From: a bacterium | GTDB lineage: Bacteria; BMS3Abin14 | NCBI GenBank assembly: GCA_029210965.1 | Contig: JARGFZ010000001.1 | Coordinates: forward strand, 62,001-126,000 | Reading direction: 5' to 3' | DNA: 64,000 nucleotides | In this document: in pieces, positions 32,068 through 48,156 of the stretch | Layout of the letters: the number at the start of each line of letters is the position of its first letter | How positions within the stretch are numbered: the first letter of the stretch is position 1 | Program-made: the position numbers and the translations under genes | Notes under the pieces: generated by a model | Databases searched by the model: none | The model's input: the letters and a program-made list of their open reading frames with translations, nothing else | Told to the model about the DNA's origin: nothing

Positions 32068-32457
32068 CTAAATCTTCACGGGAATGATCCATTTGTCGGC
32101 TGTCAGGATCATTTTGACTATCTGCCTGATAACCGTCTCGAATCTATCCAAAAGTTTATCTTTTTCATCCATTTCGATATAACCACACTGGAAAGCGTAA
32201 TCCAACCATACCAGTGTTTCACAGGCCTCGCTCTCAACATCGTTAAGTTTAGCGATAAAGGCGGCTTTGTACCTTCTTTTGCGCCAAGCCTCAGCCAGAT
32301 TAGCACACACCGACCTCGAAGAACGACGTATCTGGTCGGTCATTAAATACCTCTCTTCACGAGGAAAATTCTTGGATAAGTGGAAGATCACCATGGAGGC
32401 TTCCATGGCAGTATTGAATACGTTTAAATCTCTGTAGGATCGGATTTTTTCGGGCAT
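32068..32457 (-). CDS. Four-helix-bundle protein (23S rRNA intervening-sequence protein family)
   Basis: 129 aa. IRSYRDLNVFNTAMEASMVI, then LMTDQIRRSSRSVCANLAEA and CETLVWLDYAF match the family of small four-helix proteins first noticed in 23S rRNA intervening sequences. Here it is free-standing, between an SDR gene and a cation-efflux gene, with no rRNA nearby. Function is unknown; a pentameric helical bundle with possible RNA or DNA contact is the usual suggestion. Confidence 0.85.
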   Translation of the reverse strand: MPEKIRSYRDLNVFNTAMEASMVIFHLSKNFPREERYLMTDQIRRSSRSVCANLAEAWRKRRYKAAFIAKLNDVESEACETLVWLDYAFQCGYIEMDEKDKLLDRFETVIRQIVKMILTADKWIIPVKI

Positions 32458-35190: not shown

Positions 35191-38100
35191 CTATTTGAGA
35201 ATACTTTTCAAATCCTCCTGGTCAAACTTCAACCGGAACTTGATGTAGGGTCCCTGGGCGGTAAAGTCACCCTGGGAAAAGTCGGAATCGGTAAAGCCGT
35301 GGAGGTTGTACCCGAAGCTCAGCCACATATTTTCCATAAGCCCGTAACCAAGGGATGCGCCCACCCCATAATCGGTCGTCCCGGCGTCGATAGCAGTGAG
35401 GATACTGGTCCAGGCGCCAACGTCCCACCGCGGTGTCAGGTCGTAACGTCCCTCGGCACCGAGAAGCTGGGTCAGACCGTCATAGACCTGTCCCTCGACG
35501 GTGTCCTTGACATACTTGGCGCCGTACTGGAAAGAAACCTGGAGATCATCGGAGGCCTTGAGGTTGGCGTTGAAGTTGTTGACCAGCTTCCAGGCGTTGA
35601 GATCGGCAGTTCCGCCCTTTTCCTCGTCGATAACGTAATCAAGGCGGTCGAGCAGCGTCCACTTCCTCTCGAAGGGCCTGTATACGAAGCCCAGTCTCAC
35701 ATCGGTCTCTTTCGTGTTGATCCCGGTGTCAGCCTCGGTCCGGAAATGCTTGAGATCGGTGGAGATACCGATACCGTCTGCAGGCTCACCGAAGAGGCCC
35801 GAGATCACGCCCCACTTATCGCTGGTTTCGGCGTTACGCGCCTCCAGCCTGACATCAAAATCCCACCTCACCCATCTGTAGCCAGCACCAACCGATACAG
35901 CCGCATAGTCCTCCGCGGGTGATACCGGCGCCGCATCCACATTAAGAGGTTCACTGAGGTTCTCATCCAGGACCTTAGCCCCTTCAAAACCGGCGCTCAG
36001 TGCCAGGCGTTCACTGGCCTGCCAGGTCTGTTTCAGCCCGGTGGTGGCGTACACCCTGTCACCATTTTCGTTGTAAGCTCTATCCACAGTGGAGGAGACA
36101 GCCCCTCCTCTCCAGGGTGTCGCCTGGAATCCGACCCTGGACGAATTCACGGAAGTCCCGTCTCCATCTGTGAACTCCTGTTCCGCGTAAAGGGAAGCGT
36201 TGCCGCTCAGGCGGTAATCGGCACCCAGGAGGGTTCGGGTCGGGTAAGCCGTGTTCCCGTTGTCGGCCAGGGACTGATCGTGATCGGCCCTCAACTCCCA
36301 TCGCCGGTCTTCTGAGTGCCAGTCCACACCCGCGGTAAGCTGTTGTGAAATTTCCTCGGTGCCGTCGCTTTCCTCATCTGTTGCCTGCCTTACCGCTGCC
36401 CTGTATCGACTTTGGCCCACTTCATACAAAGCGCCCGCCTCCTCCACATGGCGCTGGTGACCGGTCTCCAGGTTTTCCTGCATAAACACATCCGCAAGGA
36501 GCGAAAGGTTATTATTAAGTCTGTACCTGGCATCTGCCCCCGACTTCCGCATGCCTGCCTCCGAAGCCATTTGCTGGCCGAGGCCGAAATCCGGGTCCTG
36601 TTCCCTCACATAAAGCATTCCCTTTAGCTTGGCTGAATCGTATGCAAGTTCCACGACATACGCCGAACCATCTGAACCTGTCCCCAGCACTTCCTTGTTT
36701 GTTTCAGCAGTCTCGGCCCTGAGCTCAATACTGGCGTTAAGCTTCGCAGAGACATCCACACCTACAAGCTCCCCATCCCCCTCACCCTTGTCTTCGTTAA
36801 CATAGGACACCCCCACAGTGACCAGTGAACCCGGCACTGCAATCTGGGCACGGGCTCCATAGGTGATCCCCGTGGCATCGGGGTCAGACGTCTCATAATC
36901 CACCACGATGTACACCGGGTTGAACCCTGAATCCCGCTCGCTTACAGGTGATTTGAAAAAGAGAGTTCCTTCGTCGTAATCGATGTTGTAGTCGATGTGT
37001 CTGGCAAGTTCCTGAACAGAGAGGATCACGTGGCTCTGGAAGCGGTCCCTCACCTCGATCCTCACCGACTCGGAGTTCACAACCACATCGCTGTTGGATA
37101 GCTTGTACCGTCCTGAAGTACCGTCACCTGGAATCTCATCCTTCATGAAAGCCTGCCTGGTCTCGCTGGCGAAAAGGTTATAGGAGAAAGTCTCTCCGCG
37201 AAGTTCAGACCTCATTCCCGTCATCCGGCGATCGTATCGGGAAAGCTCGGTAACGGTTAACCCGGTGTCCGTGTCTCCGAAAAGGGCGTAGAACTGTTTT
37301 CGCTCGAGTTTCAGGTACAGTTTTCCGGAGGTAGGGGCCTCGTAACCCTGCTCGGTGGAATCACCGTAAAGGGTGTAGTACGTGTCAGGATCGATTGTTC
37401 CGTGCAGACCCTCCCCGGCAGCGCCGTGGGGTCCGGCCGTATCGTACTTCATGGTCAGGAGATACTCACCCTTGACCTTCCCTTTGGCAAAGAACGCGGT
37501 ACGGCCGTCGGTGTAGAGGTCCTCTTCATCGCCTGCGTCTTCGAGAGATTCCATGTTGCCGCTGAGGGTGTTGTAACCCACGGTCCCTTCCGCAAGTCCC
37601 ACGAGGATCCACTCCTGCCGATCCGAGTTGAGCCAGACCGGGAGACTTTCTTTCTCGCCCTCCAGCCACAGATTGACCACAGCCTCACCTGAAAGTGACG
37701 TGGGTTCCAGTTCAAGATAGGCCATTCCATCCTCTCCCACAAAGTAGGTACTGAAAGACCCTCTGCGCCCGGAAAGGTCCTCATTTCTGTCTGCTTCGGC
37801 CTGCTGGAGGGTCCTGTGGGGAGGATCCACGTAGTATTGGCCCATGACTCCCCGTCTAGCCGGGTAACCTGCCATGTCTGTGAGACGAATAGCTATTCTG
37901 GGTGAGTTAAGGCCATCGGCCGTCAGACGGGAAAGGTCGGGTCTGTATTTCATGGTCACCGGTGAGCCCGAATAGTGGACTGTCTGCTCTATCCTCGCCA
38001 CCTCCTTGCCGCTGGCGTCCAAGGCCACCGCGGTCAACCGGTTGTCGCCTTCAACAATGTCGACACCACGCCAGATGCTCAGGGCGGCGATCTGAAGATC

Positions 38101-40821
38101 ATTCTTTACCGTGGAATCAAAGTGGAGGGGGTTTATCTCTTTCCCGTCCAGTTCTATCCTGACCCGCTGGTCGGGAGGGTGAACCACGGCTATCTTGAGG
38201 CTGGGAATATGAGGCAGGAACCCGGTTCCCGGTTTCACCCACCGTAGTGTCCCGTTATCCGATGCGAACCAATCCAGATATTTTAACGGGTCAACATCCG
38301 GTGCCCTCTCCTCGTGTACCACCCTCTCAACAGCAGCGTTTCGCCTTGGACCGGGATGAACCCCCTTGATGATGATCTCGGTAGTGTTCTGATCGTTTAT
38401 GGTCACAAGCTCTGAACGCTTCTCGATGGTGGTGATGATAACGGTGACCTCCACCCGCCTGTTGAGGGTCCTCCCCCTGACAGTGTCGTTGGAGGCCAAC
38501 GGCTCATCTGGTCCTTTCCCATCGATAATGAACAAGCCGGACGGCAGATCCCAGATGCTTCTAAGGTACCGGGCCATACTCCTTGCCCGGGCCCTGGACA
38601 GGGCATGGTTGTCGGCGTAAAGACGCTGCCCCCTCGCGCTGATAGGAACGTTATCCGTGTGACCGGTGACATGCACCCGTCCGATCTCAGCCGGATCAAA
38701 CAGTGCCGAGATGATATCCAGAGCCTTCCTGTCATCCTCTGAAAGGCTGGCCTCGAAGGTCCCGAAATGGGGCCGGAAGACGAACTTTCTGGTCCTCGTC
38801 TCTTCCCGTTCCGCGACCTTCAGGAGCACATTCTCCACCGGCGGGGTGGTCATATCCTTCTGGATCGGAGTGTCGAATATGACACTTGCGCTGCTGACAA
38901 CCTCGTTCATCTCGCCCTGCACCAGTTTGACCGTGTTACTCCCATCCCCGGAGTCCAGGTGCTCGATATCTTCTTCCCGGGACCATTGCCACCCCTCTTT
39001 GAACTTTGTTTCGAAGGTGATCCCCTTCTCCCAGGCGCCGGAGACGTCCCCCACGTTCCACACAAGTGTGCTTCCCTGAACCTCGGGATCGCCGATGGCA
39101 ACCCCCTCCAACATAGCCGTTCCACGCACATATTCCATACCCTCAGAAAGGTTGACCCTGAAACGTATATTTTGAAGAGGTACCTGCTCCCCCGTCATAT
39201 TGGCACTGAAAGTAACTCGATCCTGCAGGGCCATCGTCTTGAGTACAAGGACAGCTCTCCCCTCCATCGGAGTTTTCGGAGTCAGGTTAAAATCAACTCT
39301 CCAGAGGGACCCGCCGGCAAGGTCCACGAACCTGGACCAGGGAGTTCGGGCCTGCCGAGTATCCTCGTCACACGCAACGACATCGTACATTTCCGGGACC
39401 GTTTCCAAGTCCAACTGGACCACATGGGTACCGGAGTGCACGCCCTCGAAATGGTACCTGCCCATCTGATCTGTTACAACATAGGTCCCGTCCTCCAGGA
39501 AGAGCCTGATACCGGCCACACCGCCAGTGTCCCCCTCCCCGCAAACCCCGGACAGGACCCGCCCCATGATCACGTTGCGGCTTCGGAAGAGTTCTTCGGT
39601 GACGCGCACCGTGGCCAGTGCGGTGTTTGAAAGCAAGGCACCCGAGGAAGCGATATTGGGGGCTACAGCCCGGCCGGGCAACGCTCCGGCACCAACTCTG
39701 GAAACGAAGGTGATGGTAACCGTTCCTCCAGGCGGGAGGTCTCCCACGGAAAAGGCCATGGAACGACCGTCCGGCGCAATCATTGGGTCTGGTGAGGAAA
39801 GCCCGCCTATTGATGTGGATCCGGCCTCGTATCTGAACCCCAGGGGAAGGTCTGTGGTAACCACTGTAGCCGGGATCGTTGCCCCGGATGTGTTTTCCAC
39901 CGTAATGGTGTAAGTCAGGTAATCCCCCACCGAAACCGTGTTTTTCCCCGCCGAGGCCGTGGTCCACAGGATCCCGGTCGCGTCAAACACAAAGGATGCC
40001 GAGGATGTGTCGGAACTGTCCGTGGGATCGGTGTATTCTGCCGAGAACTGGGCCCCCGGGAACCCGTAAAGGATTCCGTCGTTGGCGCTTTCTACGGGGG
40101 CTCCCGACCGGATGTAACCGGTAAAAACCCCCGTGTCCAGGCCGGTCTCAGTGAGGAGAAGGGTTTCAATAGTGATCGTTGCCGTATCCTCAACCGTAAC
40201 GGACAGGGTGTCGGCAACGGCCGGGTCCAAGTTCCCATCTGCGTCGGCCAGCCTTGCAAACACGGGATCGTCCGGGCTGAAATTCCCCGCCGGTTCCAGG
40301 GGCACCGGGACGCTGAGGTCGATGCTCGTTGCCGTGGCCGGATCCGATGGCGCCGGGGCTGGCGTGAAAACGGCCCCGTTGAAGTAGCTCGTTATGCCCA
40401 CGGTGAGGAAGATCGAGGGCGAGGACGGAGCGTAACGGAAAAGTTCCAGGGTGGATGAAGTCCCGGGCAGCACCGTCACTGTGCTCACGGAGTTTGAGAA
40501 AACCGTCTGGGGTACGCCGCTGATAAGGAAATCGGCCTGGGCCGTATTGGTAATGATGGTCCCCGGGGGAGCCGCGAAAACCGTACCACAGGAAACGAGC
40601 AGAAGGAAAACCAGCAGTAAAGAAACCTGCATGGGCCTGGGACCCGACTGAAAAAGCCTGGAACCAGGCGCGTGCAGGGCCCGCCCGGCGGTTCTGTCTC
40701 CGCCGGACGGACCGGTAATACTCCTTATGGACCGGCCCGCCCTCAACGCGCACCAACCCCTTTTCCCGGAATTAAACATTCGGGAACAGAGCCTGGCTAT
40801 GTCGGAGGTGAACAGGGCCAT
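35191..40821 (-). CDS. Giant outer-membrane protein: DUF11, SdrD-like, OmpA-like and beta-barrel regions
   Basis: 1876 codons. The longest frame starts 4 bases after the upstream stop; a typical signal peptide begins at Met64 (MQVSLLLVFLLLVSCGTVFAA, from 40632), so that may be the true start. Domain order: GTIITNTAQADF module (about 87-120); DUF11 repeat (about 285-400); SdrD-like Cna-B region (415-510, RVLSGVCGEGDTGGVAGIRL, DQMGRYHFEGV); second DUF11-like segment (520-650); OmpA-like peptidoglycan-binding domain (680-795, GHTDNVPI, LSRARARSMARYL, NRRVEV); Ig-like stretch (about 860-1060); and a long beta-rich barrel (about 1100-1876) that ends in YIKFRLKFDQEDLKSILK. It should sit in the outer membrane and touch the cell wall. 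Last gene of a five-gene secreted-protein cluster. Confidence 0.75.
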   Translation of the reverse strand: MALFTSDIARLCSRMFNSGKRGWCALRAGRSIRSITGPSGGDRTAGRALHAPGSRLFQSGPRPMQVSLLLVFLLLVSCGTVFAAPPGTIITNTAQADFLISGVPQTVFSNSVSTVTVLPGTSSTLELFRYAPSSPSIFLTVGITSYFNGAVFTPAPAPSDPATATSIDLSVPVPLEPAGNFSPDDPVFARLADADGNLDPAVADTLSVTVEDTATITIETLLLTETGLDTGVFTGYIRSGAPVESANDGILYGFPGAQFSAEYTDPTDSSDTSSASFVFDATGILWTTASAGKNTVSVGDYLTYTITVENTSGATIPATVVTTDLPLGFRYEAGSTSIGGLSSPDPMIAPDGRSMAFSVGDLPPGGTVTITFVSRVGAGALPGRAVAPNIASSGALLSNTALATVRVTEELFRSRNVIMGRVLSGVCGEGDTGGVAGIRLFLEDGTYVVTDQMGRYHFEGVHSGTHVVQLDLETVPEMYDVVACDEDTRQARTPWSRFVDLAGGSLWRVDFNLTPKTPMEGRAVLVLKTMALQDRVTFSANMTGEQVPLQNIRFRVNLSEGMEYVRGTAMLEGVAIGDPEVQGSTLVWNVGDVSGAWEKGITFETKFKEGWQWSREEDIEHLDSGDGSNTVKLVQGEMNEVVSSASVIFDTPIQKDMTTPPVENVLLKVAEREETRTRKFVFRPHFGTFEASLSEDDRKALDIISALFDPAEIGRVHVTGHTDNVPISARGQRLYADNHALSRARARSMARYLRSIWDLPSGLFIIDGKGPDEPLASNDTVRGRTLNRRVEVTVIITTIEKRSELVTINDQNTTEIIIKGVHPGPRRNAAVERVVHEERAPDVDPLKYLDWFASDNGTLRWVKPGTGFLPHIPSLKIAVVHPPDQRVRIELDGKEINPLHFDSTVKNDLQIAALSIWRGVDIVEGDNRLTAVALDASGKEVARIEQTVHYSGSPVTMKYRPDLSRLTADGLNSPRIAIRLTDMAGYPARRGVMGQYYVDPPHRTLQQAEADRNEDLSGRRGSFSTYFVGEDGMAYLELEPTSLSGEAVVNLWLEGEKESLPVWLNSDRQEWILVGLAEGTVGYNTLSGNMESLEDAGDEEDLYTDGRTAFFAKGKVKGEYLLTMKYDTAGPHGAAGEGLHGTIDPDTYYTLYGDSTEQGYEAPTSGKLYLKLERKQFYALFGDTDTGLTVTELSRYDRRMTGMRSELRGETFSYNLFASETRQAFMKDEIPGDGTSGRYKLSNSDVVVNSESVRIEVRDRFQSHVILSVQELARHIDYNIDYDEGTLFFKSPVSERDSGFNPVYIVVDYETSDPDATGITYGARAQIAVPGSLVTVGVSYVNEDKGEGDGELVGVDVSAKLNASIELRAETAETNKEVLGTGSDGSAYVVELAYDSAKLKGMLYVREQDPDFGLGQQMASEAGMRKSGADARYRLNNNLSLLADVFMQENLETGHQRHVEEAGALYEVGQSRYRAAVRQATDEESDGTEEISQQLTAGVDWHSEDRRWELRADHDQSLADNGNTAYPTRTLLGADYRLSGNASLYAEQEFTDGDGTSVNSSRVGFQATPWRGGAVSSTVDRAYNENGDRVYATTGLKQTWQASERLALSAGFEGAKVLDENLSEPLNVDAAPVSPAEDYAAVSVGAGYRWVRWDFDVRLEARNAETSDKWGVISGLFGEPADGIGISTDLKHFRTEADTGINTKETDVRLGFVYRPFERKWTLLDRLDYVIDEEKGGTADLNAWKLVNNFNANLKASDDLQVSFQYGAKYVKDTVEGQVYDGLTQLLGAEGRYDLTPRWDVGAWTSILTAIDAGTTDYGVGASLGYGLMENMWLSFGYNLHGFTDSDFSQGDFTAQGPYIKFRLKFDQEDLKSILK

Positions 40822-40827
40822 GGCGTC

Positions 40828-41844
40828 CTAGTCGATGGTGACGTCAAACTCCACAGTCATGGACGAACCGCCTGTCAACGTCGCCCCTGTGACCGTAATG
40901 GGGCCGGCGTCACTCTGGCCGGTCGGTGCGCCACCTGTCACAGAGAGAGTTCCGGCCACATAGGTGGTGTTTGCCGGGAAAGCATCCGAAAGATCAATGT
41001 TGTTAGCGTCTCCCGTCCCTGTGTTGGTCACGGTGATGGTGTAGTGGATGGTAGCCCCGGGGATCGCCTTGGCGTTGGGCGGTCCATTGCCCAGCCCGTC
41101 ATCGGTCACTTGAGCAGTCTTGGTGGCTGTGAGAGTGGCGTTGACCACCTGGAACGCGGCGTAGGCTTCGTAGTTCGCATCACCCGCGGCGTCGCTGTAG
41201 CCGGCGCCGTCGTTGTAGACGTTCTGGACCTGGGTGGAAATCTCGGCGTTGCCGCTGTCGTTAGCCAGAGCGGCGCCCAACCCCGCGACTCCTCCTTCTC
41301 TGGTCACAGAGGCGATCACATAGGTGTAGGCATCGGCGGTGGTGGCTGCAGTCGGTACATCGACCACCATAAGCACGTTGCGGACCTCGTCTTCAGCCAT
41401 ATCATCAAGGTAAAAACCGCCAGATCCAGCCGGCAGAGCGGTATCACCGCCATCGAGGACCCCATCACCGTTCACATCGAGATACAGAATCTCTGTACTG
41501 GGAGCGGGTGCCGAGGCCGGGAAAGACAGGAGCAGGTCCACAGTACCGTTGGTGACATTCTGCACCGAGAAGGCGATGGCGTTGCCCGTGGAACCCGGGA
41601 AGACCCCCACTGTTGCCGCGGTGCTTGGAGCAATTGTCCAGTCGAGGACCCTGTCCACCAGAAAATCCACCGATGCGTTGGTGGTGATGGTGGACAGGCC
41701 GGCCCCGTACTGGATCGTGACGCTGTTGGTGATGGTGGTGCCGTAGTTGGTATCGGCACCCGCGGCCAGCGCCAACTGAGGCACGGCCAGAGCCAGAACG
41801 GCCACCATCAGGACAGCGAGCCCAAATGATGTTTTTGTTTTCAT
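40828..41844 (-). CDS. Secreted DUF11-domain protein
   Basis: 338 aa from ATG 41844, preceded by GAAAGGAGAAAGAA. Signal peptide about 1-28 (VLALAVPQLALAAG). The mature N-terminus is GTTITNSVTIQYGAGLSTIT, a module shared with two neighbours. The C-terminal DUF11 domain includes AIPGATIHYTITVTNTGTGD and ends MTVEFDVTID at the stop. A DVNGDGVLDGGD stretch resembles a dockerin-like calcium loop. Four bases separate its stop from the longest frame of the giant downstream gene. About 213 bases upstream to the next gene hold GC-rich inverted repeat sequence around 41905-41920 and no gene. Confidence 0.78.
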   Translation of the reverse strand: MKTKTSFGLAVLMVAVLALAVPQLALAAGADTNYGTTITNSVTIQYGAGLSTITTNASVDFLVDRVLDWTIAPSTAATVGVFPGSTGNAIAFSVQNVTNGTVDLLLSFPASAPAPSTEILYLDVNGDGVLDGGDTALPAGSGGFYLDDMAEDEVRNVLMVVDVPTAATTADAYTYVIASVTREGGVAGLGAALANDSGNAEISTQVQNVYNDGAGYSDAAGDANYEAYAAFQVVNATLTATKTAQVTDDGLGNGPPNAKAIPGATIHYTITVTNTGTGDANNIDLSDAFPANTTYVAGTLSVTGGAPTGQSDAGPITVTGATLTGGSSMTVEFDVTID

Positions 41845-42057
41845 TTCTTTCTCCTTTCGATAATACAAATACACCGTCAGTTTATTTTCATTTCAGGGTT
41901 TGCCGCGTGCGGCCCGGAGTATGCCTGTCGCGGTCTTTTTATTTCTCCTTCGATTCAGAAATGACCACCTCTTTTTCAACAGTTTTATTTTTCGCCATAA
42001 AGTGGGAGCCAAAAAAGGTACTCCCGACCTGTTTCGCTCTTCGAGGTACTAAAGGCT

Positions 42058-42552
42058 CTACTTCACCCTGGCCCTGAAGGTCACCGTGCCGCCCCCTCGG
42101 GCGGGTACGGGCTCAACCAGCTGCCAGCGGATATGCGTGTAATCGTACGGTATGGCCTTGCGCTTTTGGCCATCATCACCGGTCACTGTGAGGAATTCCG
42201 GCAGTCCATAGGTGCCTCCCCCGTCCACAGAATAGGTAGTATTAGCCCCTTCTCTTTCAGCACTTCCCCCCTGGTAGACCATGTGCTCGGGGATGGGGTT
42301 CGTAAGGATGATGTCTGTGGCCTCCTCATCACCTTCGTTGATATAATTTATTTTTAAAGTGAGGACCTCACCCGGCATGGCGCTCGTTGCCGGAACGAGC
42401 TGCGTGATCTTTGTGCCGGATCCGTCCACAGTCACAACTTCCCTGAGGACCTCCGACGTCAATTTGACCATGGCCCCATCCTGGCCCATGGCTGCCGCTA
42501 CAGTGACCGTGGAAAGAAAAAGGAGAGTCAGGGCTGTAAAAGTGTGTTTCAT
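42058..42552 (-). CDS. Small secreted DUF11-like protein
   Basis: 164 aa from ATG 42552 (GAGGAG site seven bases upstream). Signal peptide to about residue 22 (FLSTVTVAAA). The mature protein is a single DUF11-like beta domain: LVPATSAMPGEVLTLKINYI, NEGDEEATDIILTNPIPEHM and a terminal GGGTVTFRARVK. The start overlaps the region of the upstream stop, so translation is coupled to the preceding gene. Probably a small component of the same surface assembly. Confidence 0.72.
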   Translation of the reverse strand: MKHTFTALTLLFLSTVTVAAAMGQDGAMVKLTSEVLREVVTVDGSGTKITQLVPATSAMPGEVLTLKINYINEGDEEATDIILTNPIPEHMVYQGGSAEREGANTTYSVDGGGTYGLPEFLTVTGDDGQKRKAIPYDYTHIRWQLVEPVPARGGGTVTFRARVK

Positions 42553-42563
42553 GACATCACTCC

Positions 42564-43664
42564 TCAATCGATGGTGACCTGGAACGTTATGGTCCGCGTA
42601 CCCGCTGTCAGATCACCAAGTCTCACCCTTATTGCCCCACCCGTGAACTCTCCGCGGTCGGCCGGGTGATCCGCACCCGTGTCGGTCATCCCTGCCGGGG
42701 GTGCAGGACCCGGGCCGTCCGGGTCGAAGGTCAGAGAACCGGTCACGTAGGTCGTATTTGCCGGAACGGGATCGGTAACGGTCACGGCAGCCGCAGTACC
42801 TGACCCGGCGACGATGACGTCCAGTTGATAGGTGATCCGCGCCCCGGTAATGGGTATGGTAACAGGCAACCCCCCCACTGTTCCGGCAATGGCAGCCACC
42901 GACTTGACCACCGAGAGGGTGGTGGTCACGATGACGTATGCCCCCCTTGCCGCAGCATGACCGCCGCTGGCACCAAGAACGAGATCGGTGCCGCCAGGGC
43001 CTGAGCCAATGTAGATAGTACCGGGAGCCGTACTTGCCGGAGCGTTCTGGTGAACAGCTTCCAGGGTCACCCGCCCGATGTCTCCCGGGCTCAAAACCGT
43101 ATCCAGGATATCGCTTATCACCCACACGTAGATGGTGGTTTCACCCGGGACCGGAATGGGACCCGAGTAGAGAGTGTCAGTCCCGGTGCCCTCAAAGGAG
43201 CCCAGGGTGCCGGCGTCGATGGCGACCACCGGGTTGTCCGGATCGAAGTCGTTCCCTGCAACAACCCCGTTAACCGTCAAAGCGAAATTCTCAGTGCTGT
43301 TGCCCGAGTTTGTCACCGCAAAATAGAGAAGTTCCCCAAAGGTGGGGAAGGGAGGTGCCACAGGGGTCGTGCCGGCCATGGCAGGAGCTACCGAGACATC
43401 CACGATCTCCGCCACGGGCGTCAGGGTCGTGGAGCTGTAGATATTGATGTTCAACCCGCTCATGGTGTAATTCACCGCGGCCCGGTTCTGAATGACGGTT
43501 CCTGCGGGAGTCAGGGCCCAGGCTGGATGGGCACTGAAACCTGCCGCCGCGGCAAGCACCAGGACAATCAACGCCCTGGACACAATCCCCAACCTCAGGC
43601 TACCGGGGTTTTTCCAGTGAAGGTGCCTTGGCGCGGCCCCTGTTCGCAAAGGGCATGGCATCAC
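42564..43664 (-). CDS. Secreted DUF11-domain protein
   Basis: 366 aa; GTG 43664 or ATG 43661, both near a GGTGAGGTGA site, directly overlapping the upstream stop. Signal peptide near residues 25-48 (IVLVLAAAAGFSAHPAWA). The mature N-terminus is AGTVIQNRAAVNYTMSGLN, the same module as in the neighbours. DUF11 follows, with ITGARITYQLDVIVAGSGTA and VPANTTYVTGSLTF, and the protein ends TITFQVTID at its stop. Likely a surface or periplasmic structural protein. Confidence 0.75.
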   Translation of the reverse strand: MMPCPLRTGAAPRHLHWKNPGSLRLGIVSRALIVLVLAAAAGFSAHPAWALTPAGTVIQNRAAVNYTMSGLNINIYSSTTLTPVAEIVDVSVAPAMAGTTPVAPPFPTFGELLYFAVTNSGNSTENFALTVNGVVAGNDFDPDNPVVAIDAGTLGSFEGTGTDTLYSGPIPVPGETTIYVWVISDILDTVLSPGDIGRVTLEAVHQNAPASTAPGTIYIGSGPGGTDLVLGASGGHAAARGAYVIVTTTLSVVKSVAAIAGTVGGLPVTIPITGARITYQLDVIVAGSGTAAAVTVTDPVPANTTYVTGSLTFDPDGPGPAPPAGMTDTGADHPADRGEFTGGAIRVRLGDLTAGTRTITFQVTID

Positions 43665-43665
43665 G

Positions 43666-45300
43666 TCACCTCACCCTTATCCGCGGCGAGAGCGTAAAGC
43701 TCGACGAGGGGTTGAATGCCCCCTTGGGGTTGATCCTGAAGCCCGTGACAGCGCTGTCGTACCCATCCGGGACACCTGAGGGGTTATAGGTGTAGGCGGG
43801 TGACGGGCCGCTATCGCTGGTAAAGGAGATGTCGTCCCCTGGACTACTGAGAATGCCAAAGCTGTAGGTGAGGCCGCTCCCCGCCCCGGACCAGATCACG
43901 GGTGAGGCAGACCCGTTCCCCACGTACATCTCGGTTCCTGACGGGACCGTGTCGGTGATCACCACCGAATCGGTTATCGTCCACCCGTTTCCCACGTTGG
44001 AAACCTGGATGGAGTAGGTCACCGAGGCCCCCGGGATCGCCTTGGAGTTAGAGCTGTTAAAGGCCCTAACGTCGGCAACGCCGGATATGGACTTGATGGT
44101 CAAAAGGTCGGGCACCAGAACCTCTACGGTGTCCACAACCAGATCGGATATTGTAAAGGATTGGGTGAGACTGAACTGGGAGGTGGCCGTGGTAGTTACT
44201 GTGGCCACTCCAAACGCTACAGGCCCGATGCCGTAGACAATAATGACATCCACAGACCCGCCCCTTGCCACCGCCACGGTTCCGGCGATGACTGAATCCC
44301 CCGTGTCGAAGATGGCGTCCCCGTCGTCCAGGTAGAGGGTTACCGTAGGGGAATGGGGTCCCGCAATGGTGTAGGCAAAAGCGAAGGCATCGTCCCCGTT
44401 GCCCAGGTTCACCAGGTGGTGTACACCGAATACGGTACTGGACTGGGCCCCCTGGAGGGAGTAGGCACCCGAAAAGTCAAGATTCGCATACTGGGTGGTA
44501 CCCCCGCCGCCGCCGCAGCCCCCCAGGTTGTCGTCTATCTGAGCCCCCAGACCGCTGGCGTTCTTGTTGGCGTTGGTGCTCGATACGTGGATGATGTGGC
44601 CAGTTGGTCCGCTCAGCCCCAACCTTGCCCACTCGAACCTGTATTCCATAGCCAGGCCGTTGGCTGACCCGTAGGTACCGGATGAGGTACTTATTGCGCT
44701 GGAGATGTTCTTGAGATTCCCAGGCAGGGCGTAACCATCACCCCATCCTGCAGAATCGACGGTAGAGTCCCCGTTGGTAGCATCCACAGGGTTGTAATCG
44801 GCAATATAGATGTTCAGATTCCGGTTGTTTCCCTGCCACTCGGTCACGATGACAGGCTCCCCGTCCTCCTGATAACCATCATTATCCACATCAGCATAAA
44901 AGAGGAAGGTCTGGGTGTTGCTGACGCTGCCTGTCCGCTCGGTGTAGAAATAGAGGTAGTTGTTGTCAAAGGTGTAAGCAAACTGGATGATGTCCCTACC
45001 CGTCGACTGGACCGGAGCATCAAGGTCGGTCAGACCACCCGAAGGACCATCGCAGACGTTGTTGTCTTCGTCGTTGAGGATGGTTCCAGCCTGGGAGGTC
45101 GTCCCCCAGTCCGCCACGCTGCCGTCCATCGTCAGCGGAGCTGCGGTGGAGTACGTGAGGGGTATCCCGTCGCCGCCGCCGCAGACGCACACCGCCCACG
45201 ATACCGACGGCAGCAGGAGGAGAGAGCTGAAAAGGGCCGCCAGGATCAAGCAGCTATTTACACGAAACCTGGATGATCTGGCCCAAGAACTGTTCCTCAC
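43666..45300 (-). CDS. Secreted beta-rich protein with C-terminal DUF11 domain
   Basis: 544 aa from GTG 45300, which has GGGAGG four bases upstream; ATG 45315 lies five codons earlier without a site. Signal peptide ends near VSWAVCVCGGGDG. The N-terminal half (about 45-300) has LTMDGSVADWGT and YLYFYTERTGSV, similar to carbohydrate-binding or DOMON-type domains, and a calcium-loop-like DVDNDGYQEDGEP. The C-terminal half carries DUF11 sequence (KAIPGASVTYSIQVSNVGNG, ITDTVPSGTEMYVGN). First gene of the five-gene secreted cluster; the next gene starts before its stop is passed. Confidence 0.75.
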   Translation of the reverse strand: MRNSSWARSSRFRVNSCLILAALFSSLLLLPSVSWAVCVCGGGDGIPLTYSTAAPLTMDGSVADWGTTSQAGTILNDEDNNVCDGPSGGLTDLDAPVQSTGRDIIQFAYTFDNNYLYFYTERTGSVSNTQTFLFYADVDNDGYQEDGEPVIVTEWQGNNRNLNIYIADYNPVDATNGDSTVDSAGWGDGYALPGNLKNISSAISTSSGTYGSANGLAMEYRFEWARLGLSGPTGHIIHVSSTNANKNASGLGAQIDDNLGGCGGGGGTTQYANLDFSGAYSLQGAQSSTVFGVHHLVNLGNGDDAFAFAYTIAGPHSPTVTLYLDDGDAIFDTGDSVIAGTVAVARGGSVDVIIVYGIGPVAFGVATVTTTATSQFSLTQSFTISDLVVDTVEVLVPDLLTIKSISGVADVRAFNSSNSKAIPGASVTYSIQVSNVGNGWTITDSVVITDTVPSGTEMYVGNGSASPVIWSGAGSGLTYSFGILSSPGDDISFTSDSGPSPAYTYNPSGVPDGYDSAVTGFRINPKGAFNPSSSFTLSPRIRVR

Positions 45301-45315
45301 CGTTTCCTCCCGCAT

Positions 45316-45656
45316 TGGATGGATCTGTCTATGAATCCACCTAACAAACCAACCCCGCCCGATGGCCCCTTTTCACAGAGAACAGAGCATCGATGAAAGC
45401 ACCTTTAAACGGTTGGAATAACAGCAAATACCGTTCCAACATCCTTCTGACCAACCCATATCGCAACTATTCGAAATCAATATGTTTTTTACATATCAGA
45501 TACACTGCTGGTTAAACTCTTGTTACAAATCTGAAATTATTTCACACTATGTGCAAATATTTACATAAATAACATTTACAACATAACTGACACTGTATGG
45601 ATACACCCACCCCTTTCACTGTCGCTGATAATATTTGCATACCGACAGGATCCAGA
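45316..45656. other. AT-rich gap upstream of the DUF11 cluster
   Basis: 341 bases between the HD-GYP gene end and the first DUF11 gene. The part 45475-45600 is strongly AT-rich (GTTACAAATC, AATATTTACATAAATAAC) and should hold the promoter and any operator of the DUF11 cluster. I cannot pick a single clear -35/-10 pair. No gene is seen. Confidence 0.5.
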
Positions 45657-47855
45657 TCAGTGGTGCATTTCGCCTTCGAGTTCCTCAGCCTCTATGATCT
45701 TCAGGAGGCTGCCAACGACCGCCGAATCGAACTGTGATCCAGCAGATCTTTTCAATTCCGCCGTGGCTTCATCTACACTCAAAGCCGAACGGTAGGGTCG
45801 CGAGTGGATCATTGCGTCAAAGGCGTCAGCAACTGAGATGATGCGTGTCTCCAGGGATATTTCGTGGGCTCGAAGCCCGAAGGGATAGCCTGTACCGTCG
45901 CAGCGTTCATGGTGGGTCTGGATACACACCTTCACCGGCTCCAGATAATCTATAGGGTCAAGGATCCTCTGGCCAATGAGTGGATGTTCCTTTATGCGTG
46001 CCCACTCGTCATCATCCAGTTTGTCCGGCTTGTCAGTGATAGTGCTGGAAATAACGATCTTGCCTATGTCGTGCAGGACTCCGGCATAACGGATGGTGTC
46101 CTTTTGATTCTCGGAGAGACCAAGATAATCGGCCATCTTGAGACTGTAGTTCGTGACGTTATCGGAGTGGTCCTTGGTCCAGGTATCCTTGGCCTCCACC
46201 GCGTTCACAAGAGCCTTTATTGTCTTGAAATAACTCTCCCGGATCGCTGTATAAAGCCGCGCGTTCTCAATGGCAATGGCGGCGTGATTGCCAAGGATGG
46301 TCAAAAGGAACAGATCCCTTTCATCAAAGGAACCTCCTCCTTTCCGGTTGGTGGCGTTAAGGACACCGGATACTATCCCCTTGATCTTGAGGGGCACACA
46401 CAAAAGGGAATCGGTGTGGTAAATCGTCTTCTTGTCTGGAGCATCTTTTTTAATGCTACCCACATCCTTGACCAGGATCGGTTTGCCCTCCTCCAGCACC
46501 CAACCCGATATCCCCTCCCCCGGCCTTACCTTTGTAGCGTTTATGATCTCGCTACTCAGGCCCCCGGCATGTTTGATGATAAGACAGCCATCGCTGTCCT
46601 TGAGCATAATCGACACTGTTTCCGCCTGCAGAAGAGATGACGTCTCAACGATGATCCTTCTGATGAGCTTCTCGTCCTCAAGCTCTGAACCGATGACCTG
46701 GCTCACCTCATGGATAACGCTGAACTGCTTCACCATATCCTCGAGGGAACTGTTTTTGTCCGCGATCTCCTTGGCCATTTCACGGATCTTCCGGTTCGAC
46801 TCCTCCTTTTCCTGAAGCCGCATTTTGAGCTGCAGGTTCTTCTCCTTCAAACTATCTGTGGCCACCTGAACCTGGGCTGACAGTTTCTCCTGAAAACTGT
46901 CCTCCCGCTCGAAAGACCTCATTCCAGCGAGGGCAAGAGCTGTCTGACGTCCAACCGAAGCGATAACATCTTTGTCCCTTTCGCTGAAGCTGGCGCCATC
47001 CAGGCGGTTGGCAGCCACGAGAGCTCCCAGTTTTCGATTTCCTACTGCAAGAGGGGCCATGATCATACAATTAAGCTGCCCTCCATCGTACCCCTGTTCG
47101 TATCCGGGAAGGAGCTTGGACACTGCCTCACTGCTGTCAAGCCTGGCTGGCTTTCCACTTTCCAGGCATTCCTGGGCTGCCGCTCTGAGGATAGCATCCC
47201 TGCTGCGACTGCCGGGCTGCCACAGCTCCATCTGAGGCCGCCCTTCTGTAAAACCAAGGTCCCTGGCATCCACCAGGCTACTGCTTTCATCATCGTAAAT
47301 GTAAAGGCTGCACATCTCGCAATCCAGAGCTCTGCGCACGACCTTCAGGGTAAGGTTCAGGATCCTGCGCATATCGAAAACAGTGGACATGGCTTCGCCC
47401 AGGCGCTCCAGTATCCCTACAGCACTGTTTCGCTGGTCAAGAGCGGTCCGCAGGCGATCGTTCTCCTTTTCAAGGCGGTGCATTTCAGCCGCTTTCCCGA
47501 TATTGTGAGTGATCACGTCAGGATCGTCCTCGAGAAAGAACATGGAGTGCGCGCCGTGCTTTATAAAGTTGGAAAGAAGTGAGATGTTTTCCTTTGGACC
47601 GAAAACAATGACGGGAGGAGGCAGAGCCATCTGCCTGACTGCATCGAAAGATTTTTTGTTGTCGAGAGACGGTATGGAAAGATCGAGAAGAACGACGTCC
47701 GGTTCAGCACCCTTGAGTATAATTTCCAGCTCATTGACGCAGTCGGCCATATCCAGTTCAAAGATACGTTCCGGCAAGATCTTGCGAAGTGCCTCATCCT
47801 GAGCACCTGGACTCCGGCGGACTAACAACCTGAGTGTCGGTTTCAATTGACTCAC
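45657..47855 (-). CDS. Receiver-GAF-GAF-HD-GYP phosphodiesterase
   Basis: 732 aa from GTG 47855, with GGAG five bases upstream; the longer frame to 47963 would overlap the MerR gene by 77 bases. Order: a receiver-like domain with DVVLLDLSIPSLDN (Asp present, later part divergent); GAF domain (about 165-315); coiled coil (SAQVQVATDSLKEKNLQLK); second GAF (about 375-520); HD-GYP at the C-terminus with LHDIGK and HHERCDGTGYPFGL. HD-GYP domains hydrolyse cyclic di-GMP. It is transcribed after the MerR-like gene, which likely controls it. Confidence 0.9.
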   Translation of the reverse strand: MSQLKPTLRLLVRRSPGAQDEALRKILPERIFELDMADCVNELEIILKGAEPDVVLLDLSIPSLDNKKSFDAVRQMALPPPVIVFGPKENISLLSNFIKHGAHSMFFLEDDPDVITHNIGKAAEMHRLEKENDRLRTALDQRNSAVGILERLGEAMSTVFDMRRILNLTLKVVRRALDCEMCSLYIYDDESSSLVDARDLGFTEGRPQMELWQPGSRSRDAILRAAAQECLESGKPARLDSSEAVSKLLPGYEQGYDGGQLNCMIMAPLAVGNRKLGALVAANRLDGASFSERDKDVIASVGRQTALALAGMRSFEREDSFQEKLSAQVQVATDSLKEKNLQLKMRLQEKEESNRKIREMAKEIADKNSSLEDMVKQFSVIHEVSQVIGSELEDEKLIRRIIVETSSLLQAETVSIMLKDSDGCLIIKHAGGLSSEIINATKVRPGEGISGWVLEEGKPILVKDVGSIKKDAPDKKTIYHTDSLLCVPLKIKGIVSGVLNATNRKGGGSFDERDLFLLTILGNHAAIAIENARLYTAIRESYFKTIKALVNAVEAKDTWTKDHSDNVTNYSLKMADYLGLSENQKDTIRYAGVLHDIGKIVISSTITDKPDKLDDDEWARIKEHPLIGQRILDPIDYLEPVKVCIQTHHERCDGTGYPFGLRAHEISLETRIISVADAFDAMIHSRPYRSALSVDEATAELKRSAGSQFDSAVVGSLLKIIEAEELEGEMHH

Positions 47856-47886
47856 ACTGGCTCCATGGACTGGTAAAAGAGCAGGA

Positions 47887-48156
47887 TCAATTCTCGAACT
47901 TGAGTTCGAGGAACTGTCCCCGCTCTTTTTCCTCTTCAAGGATACGTTCTCTGATCTCCGCAATGGTGAGTCTCTCGGACTTAAGCTCCGAGATCCTGGC
48001 GAACCTTGACCGGATCAAATCGGAGTCGTAAAGACCGTAGCCCCCCCGGGTCCGCCCCTCCAGTGGGAACAGTTCCTGGGTGGTGTAGAAGTTCACCTTG
48101 GACGGGGAGATTCCCAGCATGCGACAGATATCCTTACGCTTGACCAGCTTCAACAT
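47887..48156 (-). CDS. Short MerR-family DNA-binding protein
   Basis: 89 aa. The winged helix-turn-helix is KRKDICRMLGISPSKVNFYT followed by GRTRGGYGLYDSDLIRSRF; there is no effector domain, only a short helix (LTIAEIRERILEEEKERG). Such short MerR proteins act as repressors or as partners of other proteins. It precedes the HD-GYP gene by 31 bases and has its own promoter with an inverted repeat, so it probably regulates itself and the HD-GYP gene. Confidence 0.8.
   Translation of the reverse strand: MLKLVKRKDICRMLGISPSKVNFYTTQELFPLEGRTRGGYGLYDSDLIRSRFARISELKSERLTIAEIRERILEEEKERGQFLELKFEN

Follow-up and report, generated by a model that had tools for sequence, protein, structure and literature searches.

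What could five adjacent genes, each coding for a signal-peptide protein with DUF11-type domains, build together in a bacterium? The question is raised by a minus-strand run of five genes, here g1 to g5, at positions 45315-35191 of a 64,000-nucleotide stretch of BMS3Abin14 DNA (the window; GCA_029210965.1, contig JARGFZ010000001.1, positions 62,001 to 126,000). The original prediction described five adjacent same-strand genes, with a signal peptide and a DUF11-type domain in every product, and proposed an undescribed layer, sheath or filament held by the last protein. The gene run is as described, and a signal peptide is visible in each translation, as judged by eye without a dedicated predictor. 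The domain claim depends on the model: all five proteins exceed the cut-off of the NCBIfam DUF11-repeat model TIGR01451, whereas only g4 and g5 exceed that of Pfam DUF11 (PF01345), with g1-g3 at 19-23 bits against 24.6. The N-terminal globular domain of g1 has no Pfam match. Genome-wide there are two DUF11 loci, this cluster and a gene for one 3512-residue protein on contig 30.

We favor as the more probable answer a surface fibre of split DUF11 immunoglobulin-like (Ig) domains, joined head to tail by donor-strand complementation and probably sealed by intermolecular Lys-Asn bonds. In this model the C-terminal DUF11 domain of each of g1-g4, which lacks its last two strands, serves as an acceptor, and g2, g4 and g5 open, straight after the signal peptide, with those two strands as a donor; one subunit's donor would complete another subunit's acceptor. 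With Lys and Asp on the acceptor and Asn on the donor, a spontaneous Lys-Asn bond could lock the neighbours. We propose g1 as the tip or adhesin subunit, g2 and g4 as shaft subunits, g4 adjoining the base, and g5 as the wall- and membrane-anchored base, which would be bound to peptidoglycan through its OmpA domain and to the outer membrane through a barrel that may double as exit channel. In this lineage the small g3 has a degenerate triad, and it may act as an adaptor or as a cap that binds reversibly. The earlier idea of several subunits assembled and held by the last protein thereby gains support from the sequences, with its layer, sheath or filament narrowed to a strand-complemented fibre. 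The sequences show the splitting of the domains, the donor and acceptor roles, the conservation of the triad and the gene order, whereas pairing in trans, covalency, the surface location, the order of subunits, an adhesive role and export through the barrel are inferred.

Open acceptors and N-terminal donors

The last DUF11 domain of each of g1-g4 ends at an FxVxI-type strand, followed by the stop codon, and g1-g4 and their relatives from about 15 taxa all finish at this strand or a few residues from it. In proteins of these kinds an internal DUF11 domain instead runs on into "GTxIxNxAxxxY ... SNxVxxxV", and the mature N-termini of g2, g4 and g5 consist of the same GTxIxNxA...SNxV closing segment that g1-g4 lack. 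In none of g1-g4 is the C-terminal Ig domain complete, with all three triad residues on a single chain. It is also evident that the halves are distributed unequally: g1 and g3 carry an acceptor only, g2 and g4 a donor and an acceptor, and g5 a donor only. No donor is present on g1 or g3, and the C-terminus of g5, which does bear a donor, is a predicted barrel, so the contacts of these three, at the least, would have to join different proteins. By sequence, the pattern of a groove and an N-terminal donor strand is present in a fold family unrelated to chaperone-usher pili.

A hidden Markov model (HMM) of the closing segment, trained solely on internal segments from proteins that do not belong to the family, recovers the mature N-termini of g2, g4 and g5 (best 5.8e-7) and none of g1, g3 or g6 (the downstream DUF11 gene). 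Twenty of 34 donors outscore all 200 of their own shuffles, compared with 0 of 26 g1, g3 and g6 sequences. The motif, derived from the same sequences, is present in 30/34 donors, 0/26 others and 4% of shuffles; its regular expression was loosened between successive counts, and motif counts are indicative only. The HMM shuffle test is independent of the expression, although its acceptor model comes partly from the same clusters. Moreover, ten further loci, none of them used in forming the split-domain idea, have donors at g2 and g4 in every complete case, and the g5 donor is clear in seven of eight and degenerate in one. There the motif occurs in 18 of 21 donors (20 by eye) against 1 of 13 non-donors, all 29 intact C-termini are open, and neither g3 nor adhesin-like g1 proteins bear donors. 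These results point to domains whose halves are divided between proteins.

The isopeptide triad

The DUF11 domain, now named CLIPPER, has an Ig fold with a Lys-Asp-Asn cross-link, and its isopeptide Asn sits close to the C-terminal end (PMC12617251). In the open C-terminal domains of g1, g2, g4 and g6, the triad Lys and the triad Asp are each present in 28 of 30, Glu taking the place of Asp in the other two, and the Asn of the donors is nearly invariant. The ten further loci retain the acceptor Lys in 16/19 and the Asp in 18/19. The donor Asn lines up with the isopeptide Asn (Asn806 region) of the solved CLIPPER structure 9IFR; the query was a hand-made DUF11-like sequence used for line-up alone, the Asp numbering in this alignment is off by one from PMC12617251, and a natural DUF11 segment as query did not retrieve 9IFR. 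Since the triad is split between acceptor and donor, a covalent seal is plausible, as in an archaeal thread compared below. The g3 of the window lacks the triad Lys and has Asn (TNPIP) in place of Asp. A universal role of g3 as a non-locking cap, which we considered, is weakened, some lineages keeping both Lys and Asp.

A fibre complemented in trans could also do without the covalent lock, the Lys, Asp and Asn being structural relics or engaged in hydrogen bonds only. DUF11 domains without isopeptide bonds are known, and the degenerate triad of g3 in this lineage fits such a fibre, but the near-constancy of Lys and Asp in the acceptors and of Asn in the donors exceeds what bare strand fit needs, and we regard a purely non-covalent fibre as unlikely.

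Conservation of the cluster

All five genes are collinear in genome G006, with the same neighbour upstream, an HD-GYP protein. The five-gene block is not obligatory, as G003 (a single contig, rated 100% complete) has g1-g4 at 437-440 kb and g5 at 1408-1413 kb, and only g4-g5 was found in G002 (81% complete). In G004, contig 1 holds g5 in two pieces nearly 400 kb apart (1123359-1128293 and 727324-727998), either a rearrangement or a scaffolding error, with runs of N nearby. Close orthologues of g5 are confined to the same family of genomes. The predicted five-gene cluster is right only in part: what is conserved more widely is a core of g3-g4-g5, around which g1 and g2 vary.

The order of this core recurs in Novosphingobium, Pacificitalea, Deinococcus, Thermus and many other genomes. 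Novosphingobium has g2-g3-g4-g5 and a last DUF11 gene (frame-shifted there), Pacificitalea and several other genomes have g3-g4-g5, Thermus and Deinococcus have g3-g4 followed by a split g5, and cyanobacteria and Acinetobacter have the cluster in rearranged form. The order together with open acceptors and N-terminal donors is found in the window and in loci L038, L082, L088, L089, L091, L092, L118-L122, L124 and L125. Across phyla, g3 is better conserved than any other marker of the cluster. Among 374 genomes outside the family, full-length g3 is present in six, five of which also have the full-length barrel (P = 3e-7). In a second set of 297 genomes from another phylum, picked after the idea was formed but including one genome seen earlier (G319), the barrel is present in 10/10 genomes with full-length g3 versus 8/287 others, and in 9 of 11 loci the barrel is encoded 5-10 kb downstream of g3 on the same strand of one contig. 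Among the ten further loci, g3-g4 is present in all ten, and the barrel comes next in all eight where the contig continues. The g3-g4-g5 core is ancient. Viral contigs yielded only two relatives, both host-like.

The 3512-residue paralogue on contig 30 (L045:8133-18668, minus strand, G000) has five DUF11, two OmpA and two SdrD_B domains and the same barrel. On its 3' side (to 450) are genes for a small coiled-coil-like protein, three TPR proteins and a MotA/TolQ/ExbB protein, possibly making this locus an energised relative in the same genome.

The proposed base protein

The 1.9-kilocodon outer-membrane protein expected at the end of the cluster corresponds to g5, with 1876 residues, an OmpA domain (PF00691, 34.1 bits against a cut-off of 27.2) and a beta-rich C-terminal region. 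The OmpA match implies a predicted wall anchor; the SdrD_B match (residues 426-472) is weak. The C-terminal ~800 residues match no Pfam family, and a comparison with PDB sequences found no relative. They align over the full length with proteins of Acinetobacter, Pacificitalea, Synechococcus and other genomes, several of which finish in F/Y as outer-membrane proteins do. There are 46 amphipathic strands, versus 27 ± 3.5 in shuffled columns, and a plug-like region is inserted after about six strands. This region is a predicted outer-membrane barrel, which could retain the fibre, serve its export, or do both.

The Acinetobacter OmpA domain belongs to a protein of its own, encoded next door, and the barrel and the DUF11 part are not joined in Thermus, Deinococcus and Synechococcus. 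These arrangements suggest that the OmpA, barrel and DUF11 modules cooperate even when apart.

A relation of the barrel to SprA, suspected from a motif, is unsupported, with no match among PDB sequences. A Foldseek search with the low-confidence barrel model returned generic barrels (template-modelling score ~0.13) and is not used as evidence. In about 22 genomes, mostly one per genome, proteins of ~1050-1250 residues (L107:6398-9811 and similar matches) share with the g5 barrel only the plug-like stretch (A2 columns ~126-310); they have no Pfam match and are apparently an unnamed outer-membrane family.

Points against the fibre and alternative explanations

Several observations weigh against the proposed fibre. 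The donors of the window's own g2 and g4 are weak individually, with 24/200 and 3/200 shuffles scoring equally. An AlphaFold2 model of a g4-g5 read-through chain has a predicted local distance difference test score (pLDDT) of 30 and leaves docking unsupported, and the barrel model is equally poor as a structure (pLDDT 38), only 3-4 sequences being alignable in each case. The OmpA domain suggests that the N-terminal part of g5 would be periplasmic, which is not easily reconciled with its donor meeting an exported fibre. The g3 protein retains Lys and Asp in about three of the ten further loci, which weakens the cap idea. Finally, g5 lies ~970 kb from g1-g4 in G003, and the two halves carried by g2, or by g4, could pair in cis.

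The last two points also fit circularly permuted monomers, in which the g2 and g4 donors fold onto their own C-terminal domains, as the presence of both halves on each would allow, and the cluster encodes separate adhesins, either soluble or bound to the surface, g5 being an independent OmpA-barrel adhesin. This explanation leaves the g5 donor and the g1 and g3 acceptors without partners and the conserved g3-g4-g5 order across phyla unexplained, and we consider it improbable. A surface layer or sheath, with DUF11 proteins tiling the outer membrane and g5 as the anchor, would agree with the OmpA domain and barrel of g5 and with the proposal that DUF11 proteins contribute to the S-layers of some archaea (PMC10787695); subunits with a single donor and a single acceptor would instead form linear chains, the sequences show no further lattice contact, and Pfam scans of the cluster found no S-layer homology domain, which makes a layer very improbable. 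Least credible is a g5 barrel that acts mainly as an usher-like secretion channel for g1-g4 or other cargo, with the DUF11 proteins as its substrates or gate and not a lasting fibre, for although the barrel is long and conserved, with a plug-like insert after about six strands, and standalone barrels adjoin DUF11 proteins, neither the cluster nor the scanned neighbours gave a Pfam match to an usher or a periplasmic chaperone, and neither the PDB comparison nor Foldseek gave the barrel a specific relative. Pfam matches to type V fimbrial families are likewise absent from the cluster. At L046:1660-10774 (G038), a chaperone-like protein and a 1000-residue protein, possibly usher-like by eye, are encoded near a standalone barrel and a DUF11 protein.

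Comparison with known systems

The CLIPPER fibrillar adhesin of Acinetobacter silvestris (9IFR; PMC12617251) shares with g1-g5 the Lys-Asp-Asn DUF11 domains, the OmpA anchor and a probable place at the Gram-negative surface, but its domains are all complete and in one polypeptide, whereas g1-g5 have terminal domains split between proteins and an added predicted barrel. Compared by described mechanism only, the Sulfolobus acidocaldarius thread, Saci_0406 (PMC9715654), parallels our model in joining donor-strand complementation with a proposed intermolecular isopeptide bond. It consists of a single archaeal subunit, its bond runs from the N-terminal Asp amine to an Asn two subunits away, and, unlike g5, it lacks both a barrel and an OmpA anchor. 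The operon logic of chaperone-usher pili (Fim/Pap, archaic and alternative), with a groove-only tip, a shaft with donor and groove, and an outer-membrane protein, resembles that of g1-g5; these pili are non-covalent, and the anchor of g1-g5 has its own donor and an OmpA domain. TasA/TapA and type V (Mfa/FimA) fibres exchange strands among secreted beta-sandwich subunits, as proposed for g1-g5, and have a small accessory protein, but no homology to g1-g5 was found, nor is a Gram-positive or lipoprotein-precursor route seen in the latter. The grappling-hook giants GhpA/GhlA form filaments of beaded DUF11 domains (PMC13319060), in which one huge chain is assembled side by side, in contrast to the short subunits proposed here to join end to end. 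In SpyCatcher/SpyTag the two parts of a split isopeptide Ig domain become ligated when they meet, and the lock proposed for g1-g5 would be its natural equivalent; SpyCatcher/SpyTag was engineered from one CnaB domain, whereas the natural, CnaA-like split of g1-g5 would drive polymerisation.

Gene boundaries and neighbouring features

The overlapping starts and stops reported earlier are mostly an artefact of the start codons chosen. We chose the g3 and g4 starts by Shine-Dalgarno sites: AGGAG precedes the ATG at 42552, 12 bases past the g2 stop (the longer g3 open reading frame would begin at 42567), and AAAGGAG precedes the ATG at 41844. Tight packing is then limited to g1-g2 and g4-g5. The g4 start at 41844 leaves a gap after g3 in which a second promoter is possible. 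The 341 bases upstream of g1 are indeed AT-rich (39% GC against 54.6%, below 99.8% of 341-base windows) and a candidate promoter region; these 341 bases contain no sigma-70 site distinguishable from chance and no Rfam element, riboswitches and other RNA families included, despite the HD-GYP neighbour. That neighbour, not counted as a fibre part, adjoins g1 in relatives too, with one gene intervening in G003.

At 40820-40831 (minus strand) two codons separate the g4 TAG stop from the in-frame g5 ATG, and a 72% identical relative (L007:9990-10005) has the same stop and spacing; translational coupling or read-through is conceivable. About 63 g5 residues (40632-40821, minus strand) precede a second Met that opens the hydrophobic signal stretch, and this extension is kept in the 72% relative, so the true g5 start is uncertain. 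Elsewhere in the window, 32068-32457 (minus strand) encodes a four-helix protein of the 23S rRNA-intervening-sequence type (PF05635, bAvd-related), with no rRNA nearby.

Table 1. Positions of the cluster, its donor and acceptor residues and adjoining features in the window (aa, amino acids)
Feature	Position	Strand	Description
Upstream neighbour	45657..47963	-	receiver-GAF-GAF-HD-GYP protein
AT-rich upstream region	45316..45656	.	candidate promoter region
g1	43666..45315	-	549 aa; signal peptide, N-terminal globular domain, C-terminal open DUF11
g1 triad residues	Lys408 codon 44094-44092; Asp455 codon 43953-43951	-	no donor strand
g2	42564..43664	-	366 aa; signal peptide, donor strand, middle domain, C-terminal open DUF11
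g2 donor GTVIQNRA	Asn60 codon 43487-43485	-	N-terminal
g2 acceptor residues	Lys254 codon 42905-42903; Asp298 codon 42773-42771	-	
g3	42058..42552	-	164 aa; signal peptide, one open DUF11-like domain, donor absent
g3-g4 gap	41845..42057	.	213 bases, ~46% GC
g4	40828..41844	-	338 aa; signal peptide, donor strand, middle domain, open DUF11
g4 donor GTTITNSV	Asn50 codon 41727-41725	-	numbered in the 348-aa open reading frame
g4 acceptor residues	Lys252 codon 41121-41119; Asp297 codon 40986-40984	-	
g5	35191..40821	-	1876 aa; long leader, signal peptide, donor, DUF11, SdrD_B-like, OmpA, Ig-like linker, predicted barrel
g5 donor GTIITNTA	Asn92 codon 40548-40546	-	
g5 internal complete DUF11	39682..39957	-	residues 289-380 by Pfam
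g5 OmpA-type peptidoglycan-binding domain	38461..38763	-	residues 687-787
g5 barrel region	35194..37632	-	~residues 1064-1876

Implications

The claim that the system is undescribed holds for the open-access literature, in which we found no paper that links donor strands to DUF11 in a cluster of this kind (subscription journals were not covered), but the gene set is not peculiar to this organism, spanning Pseudomonadota, Cyanobacteriota, Deinococcota and several other lineages. We suggest, more tentatively than for the fibre of the window itself, that it represents a widespread class of surface fibre in Gram-negative bacteria, polymerising through isopeptide domains that are naturally split, covalently locked without sortase, and with an OmpA-barrel anchor donating the first strand. 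If true, a gene set annotated just as "DUF11" or "hypothetical" would acquire a mechanism and a part list, and sortase-free covalent polymerisation would be added to Gram-negative fibres. It would also account for the frequent abrupt ends of single DUF11 proteins, and would provide a source of new natural peptide-protein ligation pairs.

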